Source: a virus. From it: a stretch of DNA of 64,000 bases. Where the stretch lies: positions 124,001 to 188,000 of IMG/VR virus record IMGVR_UViG_3300035703_000008; one strand, written 5' to 3'. This document shows positions 5,488 to 41,724 of the stretch, piece by piece. The notes beneath the pieces were generated by a model. It did not search any database. It worked only from the letters and a program-made list of their open reading frames with translations, and was not told where the DNA came from. Both the position numbers and the translations under genes were made by a program. Numbering within the stretch: the first letter of the stretch is position 1; the number at the start of each line of letters is the position of its first letter.

Positions 5488-8400
5488 CAATACTCACCTG
5501 TCTGGCTGATGGTGCTGCTGACCCCACCATTGGAGGCCATGGTGGCTGGATAAAGTCCCGACACCGGTGTCTGGCTGCGTATGTTGCTCTGGGTAAGGGC
5601 TTCGATCACTTCCACGTCATTGACCGTGGCCGCTGAAACAAAAATCTCGTTGGGAGCGGACCTCACTTCATAAAGGTCGCCAAAGGTCTTGAGCGGATTC
5701 AGAGGAACCAACACCACCGAGCTCACTATAGATCCCATGCGTTCGTGTAGATAGGCCGCCAGCTCTGAAAAGAAAAAGCTGTCACCAAAGTCCCATTTGT
5801 CAATGGTGAAGTAGTTGTTGACATTGGCTATGACCTGGCTCTTGATCTCGCTGATGCTGGCCGTGCTGCGTGCAGCACGCACCACTTTGATGGTGGCTCT
5901 TAATTCGGGCGCAGCCTTGGCACCAAACAAGGGCTTGAACACCACAGAATTCAACACCACATTGTCGGATATCATCTTGTAGTCATTGAGTCCTGAATAG
6001 GCCGTGGTCAGCTCGTCGATGGTAGGGATCTCGGGTTCGGGTACCGTGCCCGTGGTATCTTTGATGTAGTTCTGATAGGCCGTGTAGTATTCTTGTACCA
6101 CCACATAGAGATCGATGATGTTGGTGGTGCCTGGATCGATCACATTGGTGAGAGCCGAATTGTGACGATACTGATAGTAGAGATCCTGGCGACCAGTGCG
6201 AGCTATAAAGTCAAACCGTTCGGTAAGCACACGCTGGATGTTGCCATTGGTCTGTGTCACTGTGAGCTCGTAGAATTTCTGTGTTTGGTAAGCATAAAAA
6301 ACTTGGCCGTTCACGTATTCGCTCTTGACTAGCTCGATGGCATCCAAGGTGGCATAGATGGCATTGATCACGCCCGCGGCCAGGGGCAAGAATCTCTCGA
6401 GGTCATCAAAGTCAGTGAGCTGCTGGAAAAATACCAGCTTGGTAGTAGCTGCCACATTGGGTGCCACGATATCATCAAAGAAATCCGGATCATCGGCAAC
6501 ACCGTCGGCATCCGAGTCGAGATAGCTGACCACCACTTGATAGTCATTGACGAATCCGTCACTTTCCACGGGCTGACCAATGATGTCCATGGTCACGTCA
6601 CTGTTGAGCGGCAAATTGCTGTCGGGTCTACTGTTGCTCTTGAGTATGCGCACAAAGTCATTGATCACAAGACCGGTCTTGGGGTCATAGATCTTTTCGC
6701 CACCACCAAAGAAGAATCTGGTTTCGATCACAGATGCGAAGAGATAATCCAGCCCGCGTGACACCACAGTGTAAGATTCACCGTTGGTGGTAAACTGTAT
6801 CAGCCAGGATGCATCGAGATTGAGTCCGGGATTGGCCAGGGCCGTGCCATGACTGGAATAACTGAAAGCAGCATCGGCTGCGAGATTGGTACTGGTGATG
6901 AGATACCAAGTGGCTGTGAGATTGTCGTAGCCTAGTCCAAAGTTGCGGAACAGTTCAATCTGTTGCAGCATGCTCTGTTCAAGGCTGGAAGGCAGATCGT
7001 CCACAAACTTGGCGATCACTTGCACAGCTCGTGCTCCAGTGGGCACAAAATTATTGATAGTGACCGGTCCAGTGCCGTCAGAGAGATTGCCTTGCCCGTT
7101 GTTGGTGCCATCGCCCACCACCGACATCGTGGTGGCCCAGATCACTAGTTTTTCATCGGCACGAGTGGGTGTACCTGCCACCAAGCGATTGTTGGCATCA
7201 AAAAAGTAGCCCGTGGGCGGAACAAATTTGACCAATGCACCTTGCTGTATGTACTTGGCATTGTTGGTAGTGAACGAACCAATGGGCTGTGGAATATTAA
7301 GGCTGTTCTGGAAATAGCCGGTGGTCTCATTGACCATAGTGGTGCTCTGCCGCCAGCTGAGATTGAGCACTGTGAGATCAGGCCTGGGAAAGTTGTAGCG
7401 AGTGGGGTCAACTGAGTTCCTGCCATAATAAAACTGGATCATGCTGCGACTGGAAAGCACCGGCTCGATGTTGTTGTTGATCACGTCCACGATGTCGTTG
7501 CGATTGATCCAATCAAATTGGAAATTGGGCAACACATTCTGGCGATATAGCACTCCGTCACTGCCAAAGATATTGGTAGACGAATATTTGCCGGTGATGT
7601 CTGTGAGATCTACATAACGTGTGGTTCCCACTGAGCTACGGGCAACAGCTTTGCTCTTGATGATCGAGTTGTAACGAGTGAACGGAAAGTTGTTGTAGTC
7701 TTCACCGTTGACCATGCGATTCTGTGTGTAATAACGAGCCGGGGCACGCTGCTTGATCTCGTCAATGGTCTCGCGAGCCTGTGCGTTCGAAACCGGAGTG
7801 GTGATACCGCAAGTGAATGTGATGGTTTCGAGTCGTCCAAAGCGGCTCACATAAGTGAGAGCGATAGGCACACTCTGCATCTCTTCGGGGTTGATGATGT
7901 ACTCAAGCCCGTTGCTGGCACGCACATAGGCACGGAAAAAGCCCACGGGCACTTCGGCAAAAACACCATCACCGAATGTCAGCGTGATCTGATCGTTGGC
8001 ACGGCTGGTTATGGAATAGAGCTGACGCTGATCGGGAGCCAGTTGCTCGACTGCGCCCGCATACACGCTCTCTACATATTGCCATTCTCCGGCGATGCTG
8101 CCCACATCATCGAGCTTGTAGAGCCAATGATCTTGATCGTTACAACCTTCCACATTGATGTTCACTGTGCGGTTGGGCACAGCTTCGCTGAGGTTGAAGT
8201 CTTGATTCTGCAGCACCCCTTGCTTGAACAAGAAAAAGAATCCAGTGTTGTCGCTGCCAAACCCCAACTGATCGTTGCGATAGAGCATGTTGAATGCGCC
8301 GGATGGTCGCGGTGCTGGTTCGTACACATAATCACGACCTTGCGTGGTACTGCTCACAGCTTCAAATGGCATGTTCACACCATCCACTGCGGCTGTGTAC

Positions 8401-8999
8401 GGAGTCACGGGCAAGAATCCCGGCACGAGATTTACTGTATACTCGTCGGTGCGTATGCCAAGTATGGTGGCTGAATTGGCAGGTCTACCAAACTTCTGGC
8501 TGTCAACCAAAGCAGCATTGACCACTGTGGTAAACTGCTCGAACCAGTTGGGATTAGTAGGATCATTCCAGTCAATGGTGACATTGCTGAGGCTCACACC
8601 GTTGTAGTCCACGACATTTTCTGTGGTAGAAACTGAAAATACCTTGAGAAATCCTTGTGCAGCTTGGTTGCGCTTGGGAGTATAGCTGACAAGATTGGCC
8701 AGGCGCACCACGCTGTCTCTGCGTTCGGCTGTGTCGAGATAGTTTTCCCTGGCATTGAGATCGTTGCGGAAAGCCATGGCCTGGCCCATGAAAGCGATCA
8801 CGTCCAGGAGGGCGATAAACTCTGAACTTTCGATGTAGTCGTTGAAAGTTTCGGGATAATAAAGTCGGAGATAGTCTACGAAGCTCTTGCGCAGAGTCTC
8901 GAAATCGTAGCTCTGGAAGTCGGCTTCACGGTAGGTCTGGTACAGCCTTTTCCAGTCCTCTACCCCAAATATAGCGGTTTGTCTAGTAGTCTTGGCCAT
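5487..8999 (-). CDS. gp6: Baseplate wedge protein gp6
   Basis: This 1170-residue protein is the T4 gp6 homologue that forms the inner ring of the baseplate and joins neighbouring wedges. The N-terminus is diagnostic: FGVEDWKRLYQTYREADF, then a region with YYPETFNDYIESSEFIALLD and a block starting at FRNDLNAREN, as in gp6 of cyanophage-type T4-like phages. It is almost twice as long as T4 gp6 (about 660 residues), with extra material in the middle and C-terminal parts. It lies between gp25 and the giant structural gene and overlaps the latter's ATG. A late-promoter motif, TAAATA, lies 19 bases upstream of the ATG. No clear Shine-Dalgarno sequence is visible. Confidence 0.93.
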   Translation of the reverse strand: MAKTTRQTAIFGVEDWKRLYQTYREADFQSYDFETLRKSFVDYLRLYYPETFNDYIESSEFIALLDVIAFMGQAMAFRNDLNARENYLDTAERRDSVVRLANLVSYTPKRNQAAQGFLKVFSVSTTENVVDYNGVSLSNVTIDWNDPTNPNWFEQFTTVVNAALVDSQKFGRPANSATILGIRTDEYTVNLVPGFLPVTPYTAAVDGVNMPFEAVSSTTQGRDYVYEPAPRPSGAFNMLYRNDQLGFGSDNTGFFFLFKQGVLQNQDFNLSEAVPNRTVNINVEGCNDQDHWLYKLDDVGSIAGEWQYVESVYAGAVEQLAPDQRQLYSITSRANDQITLTFGDGVFAEVPVGFFRAYVRASNGLEYIINPEEMQSVPIALTYVSRFGRLETITFTCGITTPVSNAQARETIDEIKQRAPARYYTQNRMVNGEDYNNFPFTRYNSIIKSKAVARSSVGTTRYVDLTDITGKYSSTNIFGSDGVLYRQNVLPNFQFDWINRNDIVDVINNNIEPVLSSRSMIQFYYGRNSVDPTRYNFPRPDLTVLNLSWRQSTTMVNETTGYFQNSLNIPQPIGSFTTNNAKYIQQGALVKFVPPTGYFFDANNRLVAGTPTRADEKLVIWATTMSVVGDGTNNGQGNLSDGTGPVTINNFVPTGARAVQVIAKFVDDLPSSLEQSMLQQIELFRNFGLGYDNLTATWYLITSTNLAADAAFSYSSHGTALANPGLNLDASWLIQFTTNGESYTVVSRGLDYLFASVIETRFFFGGGEKIYDPKTGLVINDFVRILKSNSRPDSNLPLNSDVTMDIIGQPVESDGFVNDYQVVVSYLDSDADGVADDPDFFDDIVAPNVAATTKLVFFQQLTDFDDLERFLPLAAGVINAIYATLDAIELVKSEYVNGQVFYAYQTQKFYELTVTQTNGNIQRVLTERFDFIARTGRQDLYYQYRHNSALTNVIDPGTTNIIDLYVVVQEYYTAYQNYIKDTTGTVPEPEIPTIDELTTAYSGLNDYKMISDNVVLNSVVFKPLFGAKAAPELRATIKVVRAARSTASISEIKSQVIANVNNYFTIDKWDFGDSFFFSELAAYLHERMGSIVSSVVLVPLNPLKTFGDLYEVRSAPNEIFVSAATVNDVEVIEALTQSNIRSQTPVSGLYPATMASNGGVSSTISQTGEY

Positions 9000-22259: not shown

Positions 22260-22653
22260 TAATCTGACATTGACGTTCTGTTCCGAGAAGCGGTCTCATG
22301 ATCTAGCTATAACGCTGAAAGATCGGAATAATACAATAATCAATACGATTACATTTGAAGACGATACAAAGAAATCAACAACATTCGATTTATCGTTTCC
22401 TAATACATTGAAAATCAAACTAACAAATGCCGCAGATGGTAATTTTTCAGTGCATCTCGAAAGTGTGAAATTATCTGGATTATACCTGACAGATCAAATC
22501 CTTGATCAGATATGTCATGTACACTTTCTGGATTCAGATACCACATTGGTATCGCGGACATGGAATCAGTCTGGCGTAATATCGATTGACTTCTTTGCGG
22601 CTGATTGGATACAATATCATTTACTATACGGAAACAAGATTACTAAGTCATGA
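22249..22653 (+). CDS. Small beta-rich protein, unknown function (AT-rich cargo gene)
   Basis: This 134-residue protein was not recognised with confidence. It is made of alternating hydrophobic and polar residues (LTLTFCSEKRSHDLAITLKD; FDLSFPNTLKIKLTNA), which predicts a beta-sandwich, perhaps like a carbohydrate-binding module. It has no signal peptide. It overlaps the radical SAM gene by 11 bases and gp46 by four (ATGA), and it shares the AT-rich composition of the radical SAM and SGNH genes. The three may therefore have arrived or work together, but their order is interrupted by gp47. Confidence 0.6.
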   Translation: MLTNNLTLTFCSEKRSHDLAITLKDRNNTIINTITFEDDTKKSTTFDLSFPNTLKIKLTNAADGNFSVHLESVKLSGLYLTDQILDQICHVHFLDSDTTLVSRTWNQSGVISIDFFAADWIQYHLLYGNKITKS

Positions 22654-24413
22654 TCCAGATCAAAGACCTTACAGTCAAAAACTTTATGAGCGTAGGCAAT
22701 GCCACACAGGCCGTCAACTTTGATCGAAAAGATCTCACCTTGGTACTGGGCGAAAACTTGGATCTCGGTGGCGATGGTAGCAGGAACGGCACGGGCAAAA
22801 CCACAATCATCAATGCTCTTTCGTATGCCCTATACGGACAAGCCTTGACTAACATCCGACGAGATAATCTCATCAACAAGACCAATGGCAAAAACATGTT
22901 GGTGAGTTTGGACTTCTCTGTGAACAGTCAGGACTATCGTGTGGAACGAGGCCGTAAGCCAAACATCCTCAAATTTTATGTCAATTCAGAAGAAAAACAA
23001 GCGTCCGACGACAGCCAAGGTGACAGTCGTGAAACACAGGATGCCATAGAATCTGTGCTGGGTATGACGCACGATATGTTCCGGCATATCTTGGCCCTCA
23101 ATACCTACACTGAACCATTCCTAAGCCTCAAGGCCAATGACCAGCGTGCCATCATCGAGCAACTGCTAGGTATCACGCTACTAAGTGAGCGTGCCGAAAA
23201 GATCAAAGAACTCAATCGTGCCACCCGAGATGCCATCGCACAAGAAGAATTCCGTATCCGTGCTGTGCAGGAAGCCAATGTCAGGATCGAAGAGCAGATC
23301 GTTAGTCTAGAAAAGCGCCGTGACCTTTGGCTACGGAAACAACGAGAAGATTGTGCCAATCTAGAATCAGCTATATCCGCGCTGGAGCACATCGATATCG
23401 AAGCCGAAGTACAGGCACACCGAGATTTAGAACTGTTCCACAGTCGCAAGAAACAGATCGACGAGCATCAGAAGTGGGTGCGACAAATCGATCTCGACGA
23501 CGCCAAGCTAGAAAAAGATCAAGCCAAGCTACAGCGAGACATTGATGCGCTGCGAGAACATCGTTGCCATGCCTGTGGACAAGAATTGCACGATAGCAAG
23601 CAAGACGAAATCCTGGCCGAGAAACAAAAGAACTTGCAAGAGATCGTGCTGCAACTCTTGGCCAACAGCACCCAGAGGATCGAACATCTCAACGAGATCA
23701 GCGACCTTGGCGAACTTGGTGCAGCACCGCAGGTATTCTACGACGATCTTGAACAAGCACTGGGGCATAAAAACAGCATCGATGGCCTGCGTCGAGATCT
23801 TGCTAATCGACAGGCCGAAACTGATCCATACACCGAACAAATCGCCGACATGCGCGGTCAAGCCTTGCAAGAGGTCACTTATGACACACTCAATGAACTC
23901 ACAAGGGTACAGGAACACCAAGACTTCTTGCTCAAGCTCTTGACCAACAAGGATTCGTTTGTACGCAAGAAGATCATTGATCAGAATCTTTCTTATCTCA
24001 ATGCCCGACTCACTCACTATCTAGATCGGATCGGTCTTCCGCACCAAGTGGCTTTCCAAAACGATCTCTCCGTGGAAATCACTGAACTGGGCAGGGATCT
24101 AGACTTTGACAACCTCAGTCGTGGCGAGCGTAACCGTCTCATACTCTCCATGTCATGGGCATTCCGAGATGTTTGGGAAAGCCTGTATTCGCCCATCAAT
24201 GTACTGTTCATCGACGAACTCATCGATTCGGGCATGGACACAGCCGGCATGGAATCCAGCCTAGCTCTTTTGAAGAAGATGAGCCGAGAAAGAAACAAAA
24301 GCATTTGGCTGGTGAGCCATCGCGACGAGTTGGCTGGGCGTGTAGGTAACATCCTGCGCGTGGTCAAAGAAAACGGTTTTACTTCCTATAACATAGACGT
24401 GGACATCGCATGA
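22650..24413 (+). CDS. gp46: Recombination endonuclease subunit gp46 (Rad50/SbcC type)
   Basis: This 587-residue ATPase is the SMC-like half of the gp46/gp47 nuclease. The Walker A loop SRNGTGKT is at residues 44-51, a zinc-hook CHAC (Cys306, Cys309) sits at the tip of the two coiled-coil arms, and the ABC signature LSRGERNR and Walker B VLFIDE are near the C-terminus. Its length is close to T4 gp46 (560). The gene overlaps its neighbours on both sides by ATGA. Composition returns to the phage average here, unlike the gene before it. Confidence 0.95.
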   Translation: MIQIKDLTVKNFMSVGNATQAVNFDRKDLTLVLGENLDLGGDGSRNGTGKTTIINALSYALYGQALTNIRRDNLINKTNGKNMLVSLDFSVNSQDYRVERGRKPNILKFYVNSEEKQASDDSQGDSRETQDAIESVLGMTHDMFRHILALNTYTEPFLSLKANDQRAIIEQLLGITLLSERAEKIKELNRATRDAIAQEEFRIRAVQEANVRIEEQIVSLEKRRDLWLRKQREDCANLESAISALEHIDIEAEVQAHRDLELFHSRKKQIDEHQKWVRQIDLDDAKLEKDQAKLQRDIDALREHRCHACGQELHDSKQDEILAEKQKNLQEIVLQLLANSTQRIEHLNEISDLGELGAAPQVFYDDLEQALGHKNSIDGLRRDLANRQAETDPYTEQIADMRGQALQEVTYDTLNELTRVQEHQDFLLKLLTNKDSFVRKKIIDQNLSYLNARLTHYLDRIGLPHQVAFQNDLSVEITELGRDLDFDNLSRGERNRLILSMSWAFRDVWESLYSPINVLFIDELIDSGMDTAGMESSLALLKKMSRERNKSIWLVSHRDELAGRVGNILRVVKENGFTSYNIDVDIA

Positions 24414-24988: not shown

Positions 24989-25507
24989 ATGCCATCACCA
25001 AGCAAAGCCAAAGGCAACTCGTTTGAACGACAAACTGCAGATTTTCTCACCAATCTCTACGGCGAAAAGTTCATGCGGGTGCCGGGCAGCGGTGCGTACA
25101 TTGGTGGCAAAAACACACACCGCAAGCAGTTCCTACACGAAGGCCAGATACGCAGTTTCAAAGGGGATATCATCCCCGGCGAAAGTTTTCCGCGTTTCAA
25201 TGCCGAGTGCAAATCCTACAAAGACTTTCCTTTCCATCAACTTTTTTCTGGCTCAGTTAAGATCCTGGACTCATGGATTGATCAATGCGTGGATGTCGCC
25301 GACGACGGTGACTTCAACATCATATTCATGAAGTTCAACAGAAAAGGCACCTTCGTAGCCGTTCAGGCCCAGCCCAACACTTCCCAACTAATTTTTACTC
25401 GGCATTTCAACTACACTTCCGGGCTTCGCGGACATTGGATGATCATGGATCATGACATGTTCTGGGAGCTCAACTCTGACACAGTCAAGGCAATCTGCAA
25501 GGCATAA
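24989..25507 (+). CDS. Holliday-junction-resolvase-like PD-(D/E)xK nuclease
   Basis: This 172-residue protein resembles archaeal-type Holliday junction resolvases and RecB-like nucleases. The pattern is Glu13 in NSFERQTADFL, the glycine-rich RVPGSGAYIGG, Asp60 in FKGDIIPG, and Glu73-x-Lys75 in FNAECKSYKDF; together these form the PD-(D/E)xK metal site. It ends the recombination operon that starts at gp55 and so probably resolves branched DNA or trims ends before packaging, in the place of T4 gp49, which belongs to another family. No terminator follows; the next 469 bases have no gene. Confidence 0.75.
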   Translation: MPSPSKAKGNSFERQTADFLTNLYGEKFMRVPGSGAYIGGKNTHRKQFLHEGQIRSFKGDIIPGESFPRFNAECKSYKDFPFHQLFSGSVKILDSWIDQCVDVADDGDFNIIFMKFNRKGTFVAVQAQPNTSQLIFTRHFNYTSGLRGHWMIMDHDMFWELNSDTVKAICKA

Positions 25508-25964
25508 CAGGCAGTAAGGGCTCGCACAGGCCGATTTCTTGTGCCCTAGACCTGGACTTCGAGTCGCAGGGATGGAAGACCCACCGCGCCAGTGGGCACT
25601 CAACCACTACCCGCAAGGATGAAGATGGCAAAGACCTGCCGTTTGGTTGTTTGAACAGGATATAAAAGGCCCAATGAGGGGAGCAAAACCCCAGGCACAT
25701 GCGTGGTGACGGCGTACTACACATGTGTTGCCGTTGTGATAAGACGGAGTGAGCAGGTACCGGACAACCGCCTGCTTGGAACAAGTGCGTTCCGTAGCTC
25801 TAACGCTGTGTGACTGTGCAACTCGGATGATACCAGTTTTTTCTTAGCCCTTTGCTGGGCTAAGTGTGACCGCTTAATCTGGATGATACTGATATCTCGC
25901 TTGCGCTCGAAATAAATCAGTGATGAGCGCAAGCGAAATCACTAGAACTGCGCAGCAGTTCTCT
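25508..25964 (+). ncRNA. Candidate structured non-coding RNA, hairpin-rich gene-free block
   Basis: No convincing gene lies between the nuclease and the radical SAM gene, although the rest of the window is packed with genes. The block contains many self-complementary stems. They include 25524-25530 with 25538-25544; 25551-25558 with 25562-25570 (one bulge); 25591-25595 with 25604-25608; 25678-25681 with 25689-25692; 25752-25757 with 25771-25776 enclosing CGG-ACAA-CCG; 25778-25782 with 25789-25793; 25843-25850 with 25857-25864; 25897-25908 with 25925-25936 (12 perfect pairs); and 25944-25951 with 25955-25962. The nine-base sequence GGATGATAC occurs twice (25825 and 25880), each time before a strong stem. 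I do not recognise a known RNA family. Strand and ends are assumed from the neighbours. Confidence 0.5.
25897..25936 (+). other. Perfect 12-base-pair stem-loop
   Basis: TCGCTTGCGCTC (25897-25908) pairs fully with GAGCGCAAGCGA (25925-25936) around a 16-base loop that is A/T-rich. There is no T-run after it, so it is not a standard terminator. It lies just before the promoter of the radical SAM gene. Confidence 0.75.
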
Positions 25965-25970
25965 TAAATA
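25965..25970 (+). promoter_or_regulatory. T4-type late promoter for the second radical SAM gene
   Basis: TAAATA directly follows the last hairpin of the non-coding block and lies six bases before the ATG at 25977. If gp55 uses it, the message would start at or within a base or two of the start codon. Confidence 0.65.
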
Positions 25971-25976
25971 GATCCT

Positions 25977-27230
25977 ATGAACGTTGACAAAAGCACTTTC
26001 TGTGCTGCTCCTTGGTTCCAAATCAAAAATACCACGCTTGGAAGTTACTGTAGCTGTTGCGAGATAGACCACGACAAAAGCACTTTCTCGGGCAACAAAG
26101 ATTTCGCTTGGCCCACGCATCTACCATCGCACTGGAACAACAGCGATTATGCTCGATACCTTAGGTCTGAGCTCACCAATGGTGTGCGTCTCCCCGAATG
26201 TCACAAGTGTTGGAGCAAAGAAGATGCTGGACAACAAAGTCTTCGACAAACTATCAATGACACCGTGGCTGGCAATCGACCTTTTGAATCTAGTTGGATG
26301 CAATCCTACTTTAGAAAAAAGCAAGATTACGAACATGATTTACTTTTGGCTGCCGATGTACAGGTCACCAATCTTTGCAACTTTGGCTGTGTGATGTGTG
26401 AGCCGGGTAGCAGCAGCCATCTCTATCGAAGATGGCGGAGAGATCAGGACCATCCGTTGATAAAAAAACAGTTGATGATCTTCCCCAACGGCTATCTTGA
26501 TCAGGTGAAAGAAACATACATCAACAGAAACAACTACGAGCTACTGCAACACGTGATAGATCAATCTCCGCGGTACTTGAAGATCATAGGCGGTGAGCCT
26601 TTGTTGGATCAGCAGTTGATGTCTGTGTTGTGCAATCAGCTTCCCGAAGTCAAATCAAAAATCAAACTTTACATCACTACCAATGGGAGCCAAGATCTCT
26701 GCCACGCACAACAACGGTTGTCGGGTTACCAGGAAATTTTTTGGGTAGTCAGTCTAGAGTCCACGGGCAAACTGCAGGACTATGTGAGAAAAGGCAGCGT
26801 ATGGTCCGAGATCGAGCACAACATTGACAGGTTTGTAAGCGAACACAGCAGTCAACACCTTTACATAGCCTATGTGATACAGAGTCTCACATTGGCTGGG
26901 CTGCCAACATTGTTGGAATGGGCCCAGCAACGCAACATTCCAGTGGCTACCAGTTTGCTGGCCAAACCTGAATTCATGGATGTTAGATCGTTGCCCACGG
27001 AGATGAAATCAAAGTTGATTGATCAATTGTCGCAGGCAACAAAGTATTCGATACCGCTGGAGATACAAAATCCAGCATCTGTCAATATTGCAGGGTTGTG
27101 CGAGCTCATCGGGCGCACCCAGTACGATAGATCTGCCATGTTGGATCTACGAGAGTGGTTGGATTGGTACGATCCCGACCAGCAATGGCGAGACATCATT
27201 CCCGAGTGGGCACCATATTTCTCGGAGTAA
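25977..27230 (+). CDS. Radical SAM protein with N-terminal Cys-rich (twitch/SPASM-like) domain
   Basis: This 417-residue enzyme carries the cluster-binding CX3CX2C at Cys134-Cys138-Cys141 (TNLCNFGCVMCEPG) and the next-strand motif IGGEPLLD. Before the barrel lies a Cys-rich domain: FCAAPWF, then SYCSCCEID, then PECHKCW. This arrangement is known from radical SAM proteins with a twitch or SPASM-like domain that modify peptides or sugars. The substrate is unknown. It has its own late-promoter motif and stands alone between the hairpin block and the convergent apt gene, with no spacer at the 3' end. It is not closely similar to the other radical SAM gene at 20868, so the two are probably separate acquisitions. 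Confidence 0.85.
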   Translation: MNVDKSTFCAAPWFQIKNTTLGSYCSCCEIDHDKSTFSGNKDFAWPTHLPSHWNNSDYARYLRSELTNGVRLPECHKCWSKEDAGQQSLRQTINDTVAGNRPFESSWMQSYFRKKQDYEHDLLLAADVQVTNLCNFGCVMCEPGSSSHLYRRWRRDQDHPLIKKQLMIFPNGYLDQVKETYINRNNYELLQHVIDQSPRYLKIIGGEPLLDQQLMSVLCNQLPEVKSKIKLYITTNGSQDLCHAQQRLSGYQEIFWVVSLESTGKLQDYVRKGSVWSEIEHNIDRFVSEHSSQHLYIAYVIQSLTLAGLPTLLEWAQQRNIPVATSLLAKPEFMDVRSLPTEMKSKLIDQLSQATKYSIPLEIQNPASVNIAGLCELIGRTQYDRSAMLDLREWLDWYDPDQQWRDIIPEWAPYFSE

Positions 27231-41118: not shown

Positions 41119-41208
41119 CTATCAACGTATTCTGCGTTTTATGCGGCGATTAATACCCACCGCGTACCGGATAGAACCCGGATCGGACTTCTTTTAAGGA
41201 GAAAACAA

Positions 41209-41724
41209 ATGGGACGTCCTCTCAAGATCAAGAAAACTACAACCAAAGATGTTGGTTTTAACAGCTTTGACCAGCTAGAAAACCCAGTTTACCCGGCCAC
41301 TCTCAACACTACCCAGTTCTTGGGTGTAGTAGGTGGCGCCAACGCTTCTGTGGCCACTACCAGCTATCCAGTGGTCAAGTGCCAGGTTTTTGGCGCCGGC
41401 GAAAGCGCCGAAGAAGCAGGCTACATCATCCGCCAAAAAGGTTCTACCACATATCTGGTGTATGGTCAGACTTCGGGCAACACCTTCCAGTGCATCTTGG
41501 CCAATCAAGCCACTGGAAACCTCACAGCCGGCAACATGAACATCGCTATTTTTGCCGGCGACAGTTCTGATATCCTTGTCAAGAAGCTCACAAACAAATG
41601 GGCCTTAGACTACAGCGACAATCGTTATGTGATCAACTTCTTCAGCGACGAAGGAACTGAGATCAAATCGGGAACACGCGGCAACACCAACCCCCTCGCG
41701 ATCACAGAAAACTATACTTCTTAA
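41209..41724 (+). CDS. Conserved virion-type protein of unknown function
   Basis: This 171-residue protein has a basic N-terminus (MGRPLKIKKTTTKDVGF) that I recall from proteins of environmental T4-like phages, followed by a Gly/Ala-rich beta domain. A good AAGGAG site and a long structured leader suggest strong expression. It lies between the head block and the fibre block. Function unknown; a capsid or tail structural role is inferred. Confidence 0.75.
   Translation: MGRPLKIKKTTTKDVGFNSFDQLENPVYPATLNTTQFLGVVGGANASVATTSYPVVKCQVFGAGESAEEAGYIIRQKGSTTYLVYGQTSGNTFQCILANQATGNLTAGNMNIAIFAGDSSDILVKKLTNKWALDYSDNRYVINFFSDEGTEIKSGTRGNTNPLAITENYTS

Follow-up and report, generated by a model that had tools for sequence, protein, structure and literature searches.

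The window, that is, the whole 64,000-nt stretch of virus DNA that was analysed (IMG/VR record IMGVR_UViG_3300035703_000008, positions 124,001 to 188,000), contains a block without a gene, which lies behind two nuclease genes and ahead of a radical-SAM-like gene on the same strand. The genes and the main RNA features of the locus are as follows.

22650-24413, + strand: gp46/SbcC-like recombination endonuclease subunit (PHROG 77, E 1e-95), the gene most constantly present upstream of the RNA
24989-25507, + strand: PDDEXK/RusA-like nuclease gene directly upstream of the RNA (Pfam PF24608 PDDEXK_15, PHROG 244)
25508-25966, + strand: the full conserved RNA, approximately 460 nt in this copy, from the stop codon of the nuclease gene to a 3' hairpin (full-length nhmmer matches and the structure count)
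25519-25652, + strand: 5' domain, Rfam RF01718 Polynucleobacter-1 RNA (cmscan 118.4 bits, gathering score 37, E 4.1e-25)
25977-27230, + strand: radical-SAM-like gene (weak PHROG radical SAM match), outside the conserved unit

A covariance search of the block with known RNA models identified RF01718 in its 5' third, the match spanning the whole model (positions 1-141), while the remaining length was unmatched; no other credible Rfam family was found in the block even at E = 10, at which there was one spurious snoRNA match. Polynucleobacter-1 RNA was published in 2010 as a short motif of unknown function (Weinberg et al. 2010, PMC2864571), and its Rfam entry is listed for Burkholderiales, fresh water and estuary. 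In the literature searched it is present by name only, with nothing described beyond the name. The stretch 25519-25652 is a clear member, and the consensus helices of the family are kept with compensatory changes, helices 3-10 mostly having 78-100% of cells paired and both sides changing. The homologues are not confined to the 141 positions of the published model: their conservation continues to approximately 25965. As it is continuous from approximately 25511, the Rfam model must cover only the first third of a single RNA, and the mismatch in length reflects a truncated RF01718 model rather than a window copy that falls outside the family. The original prediction, that this might be a new family of large structured RNA, thus stands in part, as the family is not entirely new because its 5' third was already RF01718. 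What is new here is the full extent, approximately 430-460 nt or about three times the Rfam model, with a 3' core, a second type of 5' domain (making at least two), pseudoknots, a phage operon context and a pair of words whose identity is locked.

The block 25508-25966 is a genuine structured RNA. Among 55 homologues the edges of conservation are sharp and conservation is unbroken between approximately 25511 and 25965; across the family the RNA is conserved end to end at 430-460 nt in total. Open reading frames inside the homologues are no longer than those of shuffled sequences and no reading frame is conserved; a 12-codon frame at 25619 (MKMAKTCRLVV*) was considered as coding and rejected, not being kept in homologues. 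The single sequence of the block folds 4 SD below its dinucleotide shuffles (z -3.97, 0/100). The stems that had been picked out from the sequence, of 12 and 8 pairs and a two-part stem near 25752-25776, are all present: the perfect 12-bp core lies within a pair of 15-nt arms (25894-25908/25925-25939, 93%), and there are two perfect 8-bp stems, 25843-25850/25857-25864 and 25944-25951/25955-25962. The 12-bp stem is a peculiarity of the window copy, since its 5' arm is variable in homologues and its 3' arm makes a small hairpin of its own. In agreement with what had been read from the sequence, no model for tRNA, tmRNA, RNase P or group I intron matches in the block, and no tRNA or tmRNA was found anywhere in the window. 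That the block is the longest gene-free stretch is doubtful: positions 1551-2523 (973 nt) hold no ORF of more than 66 aa on either strand and may be a second gene-poor region or a broken gene.

The secondary structure was proposed by RNAalifold and mutual information and then counted on a separate alignment of 58 sequences. It comprises 86 pairs, four pseudoknot helices included, of which the following are the principal elements.

25511-25590, + strand: pseudoknot helix of the 5' end 25511-25515 with loop 25586-25590 (helix 1; 87% of cells paired, 4/5 pairs with changes on both sides)
25519-25544, + strand: H-type pseudoknot, 25519-25521/25530-25532 with 25524-25528/25540-25544 (helices 2 and 3; 92.5% and 99.7% of cells paired)
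25601-25649, + strand: helix 25601-25606/25644-25649 around a GNRA-type mini hairpin and helix 25625-25629/25638-25642 (helix 7; 98.6% of cells paired, 4/6 with changes on both sides)
25695-25807, + strand: variable hairpin 25695-25707/25716-25728; its loop 25711-25715 forms a pseudoknot with 25803-25807 (helix 14; 99% of cells, 5/5 pairs with changes on both sides)
25733-25774, + strand: pseudoknot 25733-25737/25764-25768 and hairpin 25754-25757/25771-25774, with the near-invariant GGUACCGGACAACCGCC (helices 15, 17 and 18; 97-100% of cells paired)
25843-25864, + strand: hairpin between the two word copies (helix 19)
25944-25962, + strand: 3' terminal hairpin with no long U-run (helix 22; 6/6 pairs with changes on both sides)

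Over the 86 pairs, 90.2% of cells were paired; the figure was 77.6% for shuffles and fell to 36-45% on sliding the structure along the alignment, a control that favours the structure somewhat because overlapping sequences had a part in deriving it. Neither the shuffle control nor the count of double changes rests on sequence overlap alone; changes on both sides were found in 65 of the 86 pairs, and the covariation score was 0.391 versus 0.174. The structure is therefore strongly supported by compensating changes across homologous regions, and these, together with the missing reading frame, bear out the original prediction of a large structured phage RNA. The best supported of the pseudoknots are 25711-25715/25803-25807 (99%) and 25733-25737/25764-25768 (98.6% of cells); helix 1 is partly formed in the window copy and well supported in the family. 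Within the internal loop of the GNRA mini hairpin, positions 25610 and 25620 show a strong exchange outside Watson-Crick pairing, C/U to U/C (65 and 63 sequences), which is likely to be a tertiary motif.

The distribution of the RNA was followed by a nucleotide profile search of 80 viral loci, chosen by a relative of the upstream nuclease, in which 18-20 loci matched the whole block and approximately 30 further loci the 3' half only. A pattern for the RF01718 core added 74 loci, almost all of which have the 3' part as well, and an independent 3' pattern, GGTACCGGACAACCGCC, was found in at least 120 viral contigs; the 5' part is also present in approximately 100 of the 114 new loci from the latter search, most exceptions being truncated by contig ends. 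The RNA thus occurs in well over 100 uncultivated phage contigs. Matches of a 17-mer in bacterial genomes were set aside as chance, as none fits the profile. Named phage isolates gave no blastn match to the RNA; in PA5oct, the closest isolate by gp46, the gap between gp46 and the gene that follows is only 12 nt, and the 3'-core model found nothing in the four isolate loci examined. One copy of the RNA per phage was found in each of four phages scanned.

In the loci that match by the 3' half only (type II), the upstream region is conserved but unlike that of type I, whose 5' domain is RF01718, and no Rfam model matches the type II region. In the type II loci L001-L061 there is a second 5' domain of approximately 180 nt with conserved GGCUCUGUGAAAAAGAUACAACC and other motifs, again without an Rfam match. 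The part common to both types is the following.

25730-25891, + strand: 3' core of both RNA types (covariance model R1), found in type II loci by a model built from type I only

When the 3' core was modelled from type I alone, the covariance model recovered 23 distinct type II loci at E below 1e-6, and the RNA is therefore modular, a shared 3' core being joined to at least two 5' domains. A single aligned homologue (L157, RNA at 8262-8645) has neither word copy 1 nor the hairpin between the copies, through either a natural deletion or an assembly collapse.

A similar gp46/SbcC gene is found upstream on the same strand in 183 of 234 RNA loci. In the type II locus L061 the SbcC/gp46-like gene, approximately 0.7-2.7 kb upstream of the RNA, carries an apparent intein at Walker A, its N-terminal part ending VDHPTHRFYTNDIISHN|TT. 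The gene immediately upstream is in most phages a SegE-type GIY-YIG nuclease (Pfam PF19835), or else a PDDEXK nuclease as in the window, and the 5' end of the RNA lies at or within its stop codon. At its other end, the RNA runs up to the stop codon of a convergent operon in 63 of 108 loci, an operon to which a T4-type baseplate gene belongs; the gene that follows is on the same strand in 45 of the 108, and 29 of these 45 genes stand behind a TATAAATA-like late promoter, a site seen in only 6 of the 63 convergent loci. In relatives, the 3' terminal hairpin adjoins either the convergent stop codon or this late-promoter-like site, and no obvious promoter of its own was seen beside the RNA. From its position between stop codons and the constancy of the upstream genes, the RNA is the 3'-terminal element of the gp47-gp46-nuclease operon. 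In the window the radical-SAM gene starts approximately 10 nt after the RNA, at 25977, an arrangement that might suggest that the RNA is its riboswitch or leader. We give this next to no credence and have rejected it: not one of 234 loci has that gene downstream, 63 of 108 have an opposite-strand gene next, and no conserved regulated gene follows on the same strand.

The most interesting part of the block is a twin word. Two copies of GGATGATAC had been noticed from the sequence, each before a strong stem, and had not been interpreted; both were confirmed. They sit in a 26-nt direct repeat, the copies of which are spaced 56 nt apart and are 73% identical.

25808-25833, + strand: direct repeat copy 1 (GUGUGAC ... 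word), with the coupled zone 25819-25834 and 7-nt core GGAUGAU at 25825-25831
25864-25889, + strand: direct repeat copy 2, with 7-nt core GGAUGAU at 25881-25887

Together the GGATGATAC copies make up a duplicated recognition word of 16 nt. Among the strongest mutual-information pairs of the RNA are columns within these copies which are identical rather than complementary. The 7-nt core occurs in 11 forms, and the two copies carry the same form in 177 of 180 distinct sequences from loci of both types and in all 127 aligned sequences. The coupled bases follow the pattern R-GAU-R-A-W/G, so that the word core GAU-A is almost constant and few bases vary. Columns 25825/25881, 25829/25885 and 25831/25887 are polymorphic, with an expected identity of approximately 0.5, and are nevertheless identical in all 127; rare variants at 25826/25882 are likewise shared by both copies, and the coupling fades out at 25819 and 25834. 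On a tree built without the coupled columns, the three columns require a minimum of 29, 10 and 15 changes, with counts and states equal in both copies. Phylogenetically independent pairs agree in 18/18, 6/6 and 8/8 cases, and in pairs of close relatives the second copy changes identically in 33/33, 13/13 and 23/23. No other column of the RNA tracks the changes of the word in close-relative pairs. The copies also differ in fixed ways. Copy 2 has an invariant AUCU ahead of its core where copy 1 has an invariant ACUC, so that inside the coupled zone CUC in copy 1 corresponds to UCU in copy 2, never converted and YYY in all 127 sequences. The four fixed differences (C/U, U/C, C/U and G/A) are all transitions, and one RNA partner could bridge them by G-U pairs.

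Such coupling needs a partner shared by both words, a direct like-with-like contact between them, or conversion of one by the other. Neither mutual information nor close-relative pairs revealed an intramolecular partner of the words, and the flanks of the fetched loci hold no shared target. The phages' own words have 7 complementary sites against 10-12 for permuted words, hence no excess, and the four phages scanned (G000, G001, G002 and G003; one genome complete, three nearly so) have no complementary site in common. No column of the adjacent genes follows the word where informative pairs sufficed, these being too few for some genes and columns. A site in gp4 of the window's own phage (G000:192845) pairs fully with both copies if G-U is allowed; it is not kept in relatives and was therefore rejected as chance. 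A CsrA sponge was also considered and rejected, as the GGA core is AGA in approximately half of the sequences.

We tentatively favour, with a confidence that falls just short of even, a trans-acting phage RNA that carries the same antisense word twice, for a single external partner which is probably a host RNA. The RNA would be produced as the 3'-terminal segment of the gp47-gp46-nuclease transcript and presumably freed from it by RNase cleavage. Its scaffold of several pseudoknots would then present two identical words of approximately 16 nt, seven strictly coupled bases with their flanks, with a GUGUGAC element and a stem ahead of each word. The two would bind the same external partner, most likely by antisense pairing with one RNA, of the host more probably than of the phage, and the word would shift whenever the partner shifts. 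It is because the differences between the copies are all transitions that we lean to an external RNA. Several observations count against this reading. G-U wobble should give more mixed intermediates than the 3 in 180 that were seen, the coupling is as tight as would be expected of a direct contact between two bodies, the phage genomes scanned share no complementary site, the single good site in the window's own phage (in gp4) is not kept in relatives, and no obvious promoter lies beside the RNA.

Alternatively, the words may touch each other like with like, within or between molecules of an RNA-only oligomer, their identity then being the constraint itself. The coupling is pairwise and matches in tightness the best Watson-Crick pairs inside the RNA, and no third column goes along with it; RNAalifold pairs the RGAU of copy 1 with the AUCU of copy 2, and the near-palindromic AUCU-RGAU of copy 2 could also dimerise. 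The modular 5' and constant 3' architecture, and the precedents of OLE, GOLLD and ROOL, are in keeping with such an oligomer. However, the words differ at the invariant YYY (CUC versus UCU) in the middle of the coupled zone, and like-with-like contacts between parallel RNA strands are very rare at this length, so that we regard it as unlikely, though of appreciable weight. Two equal sites at a roughly fixed spacing, with an almost constant core and few variable bases, might instead be bound by one dimeric RNA-binding protein of phage or host whose specificity drifts. Frequent and reversible switching between G and A in close relatives (29 changes) is hard to reconcile with protein specificity, and in the neighbouring genes that were tested no column changes with the word; a dimeric protein is accordingly given a small probability.

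An equally small one attaches to a role in cis, in which the RNA would be the 3' UTR of the gp46 operon and serve as a boundary, or in stability or termination, between converging early and late transcription, with the coupling of the words separately caused. The RNA does run from the stop codon of the last gene to the convergent stop or to just before TATAAATA, and its terminal hairpin is conserved, but it has no U-run, the conservation of sequence and pseudoknots goes far beyond the needs of a terminator, and the identity of the words would be left unexplained. Finally, direct repeats 56 nt apart and 73% identical could be homogenised by gene conversion, in which case the identity would reflect concerted evolution and not selection. 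This is very unlikely because the CUC/UCU and G/A differences are kept within 1-3 nt of the coupled bases, and every conversion tract would need to have ended at precisely that point.

In comparison with known large RNAs, the block resembles GOLLD as a large pseudoknotted phage or prophage RNA with a conserved 3' and a variable 5' region (PMC12286853), but there is no match to a GOLLD model by sequence or structure, it is half the size and it lies away from this phage's tRNA island. ROOL is similarly a large pseudoknotted RNA of phages and prophages, of unknown function, and like GOLLD forms cages (PMC12286853); the block has no Rfam match to it and differs in length and location. OLE, in which a symmetric A-A helix forms between chains (PMC12286853), offers a precedent for like-with-like contacts. 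It is a bacterial and not a phage RNA, and the block has no Rfam match to it. Repeated short recognition elements within one RNA are also a feature of dispersed-seed antisense sRNAs, such as CsrB-type sponges and multi-seed sRNAs. The block differs from these in having no GGA requirement (A stands for G in approximately half), in its elaborate scaffold and in a word that varies between phages.

As to the host, permuted tmRNAs of the betaproteobacterial type were found in tRNA islands at L349:8643-9014 (G000:68643-69014) and L328:6123-6481 (G001:46123-46481), with the tags ANDEVFALAA and ANDEVYALAA. The phage tRNAs and these tmRNAs, which fit the Burkholderiales label of RF01718, suggest a betaproteobacterial host. 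Elsewhere in the window, a freshwater-2 cis-regulatory RNA (Rfam RF02980, 68.8 bits) lies at 41123-41211 on the + strand, directly upstream of an ORF from 41210.

An orphan Rfam entry has thereby become a full phage RNA of approximately 430-460 nt, for which the ends, the fold, the genomic home and two types are defined, and which can now be expressed, probed and knocked out as a single object. It may, at somewhat less than an even chance, represent a new class of phage RNA whose function needs two mutually identical words of any sequence. It would then be either an antisense RNA with two hands, following a host RNA as this shifts, or an RNA whose repeats meet like with like. Identity-locked words are a covariation signal outside the scope of pair-based RNA tools, and they provide a handle on the partner, which must vary in step with the approximately 11 known words. 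Should the partner be a host RNA, a contact between phage and host would be readable from sequence alone; should the two words instead touch, their contact would be of a kind rarely seen in RNA.
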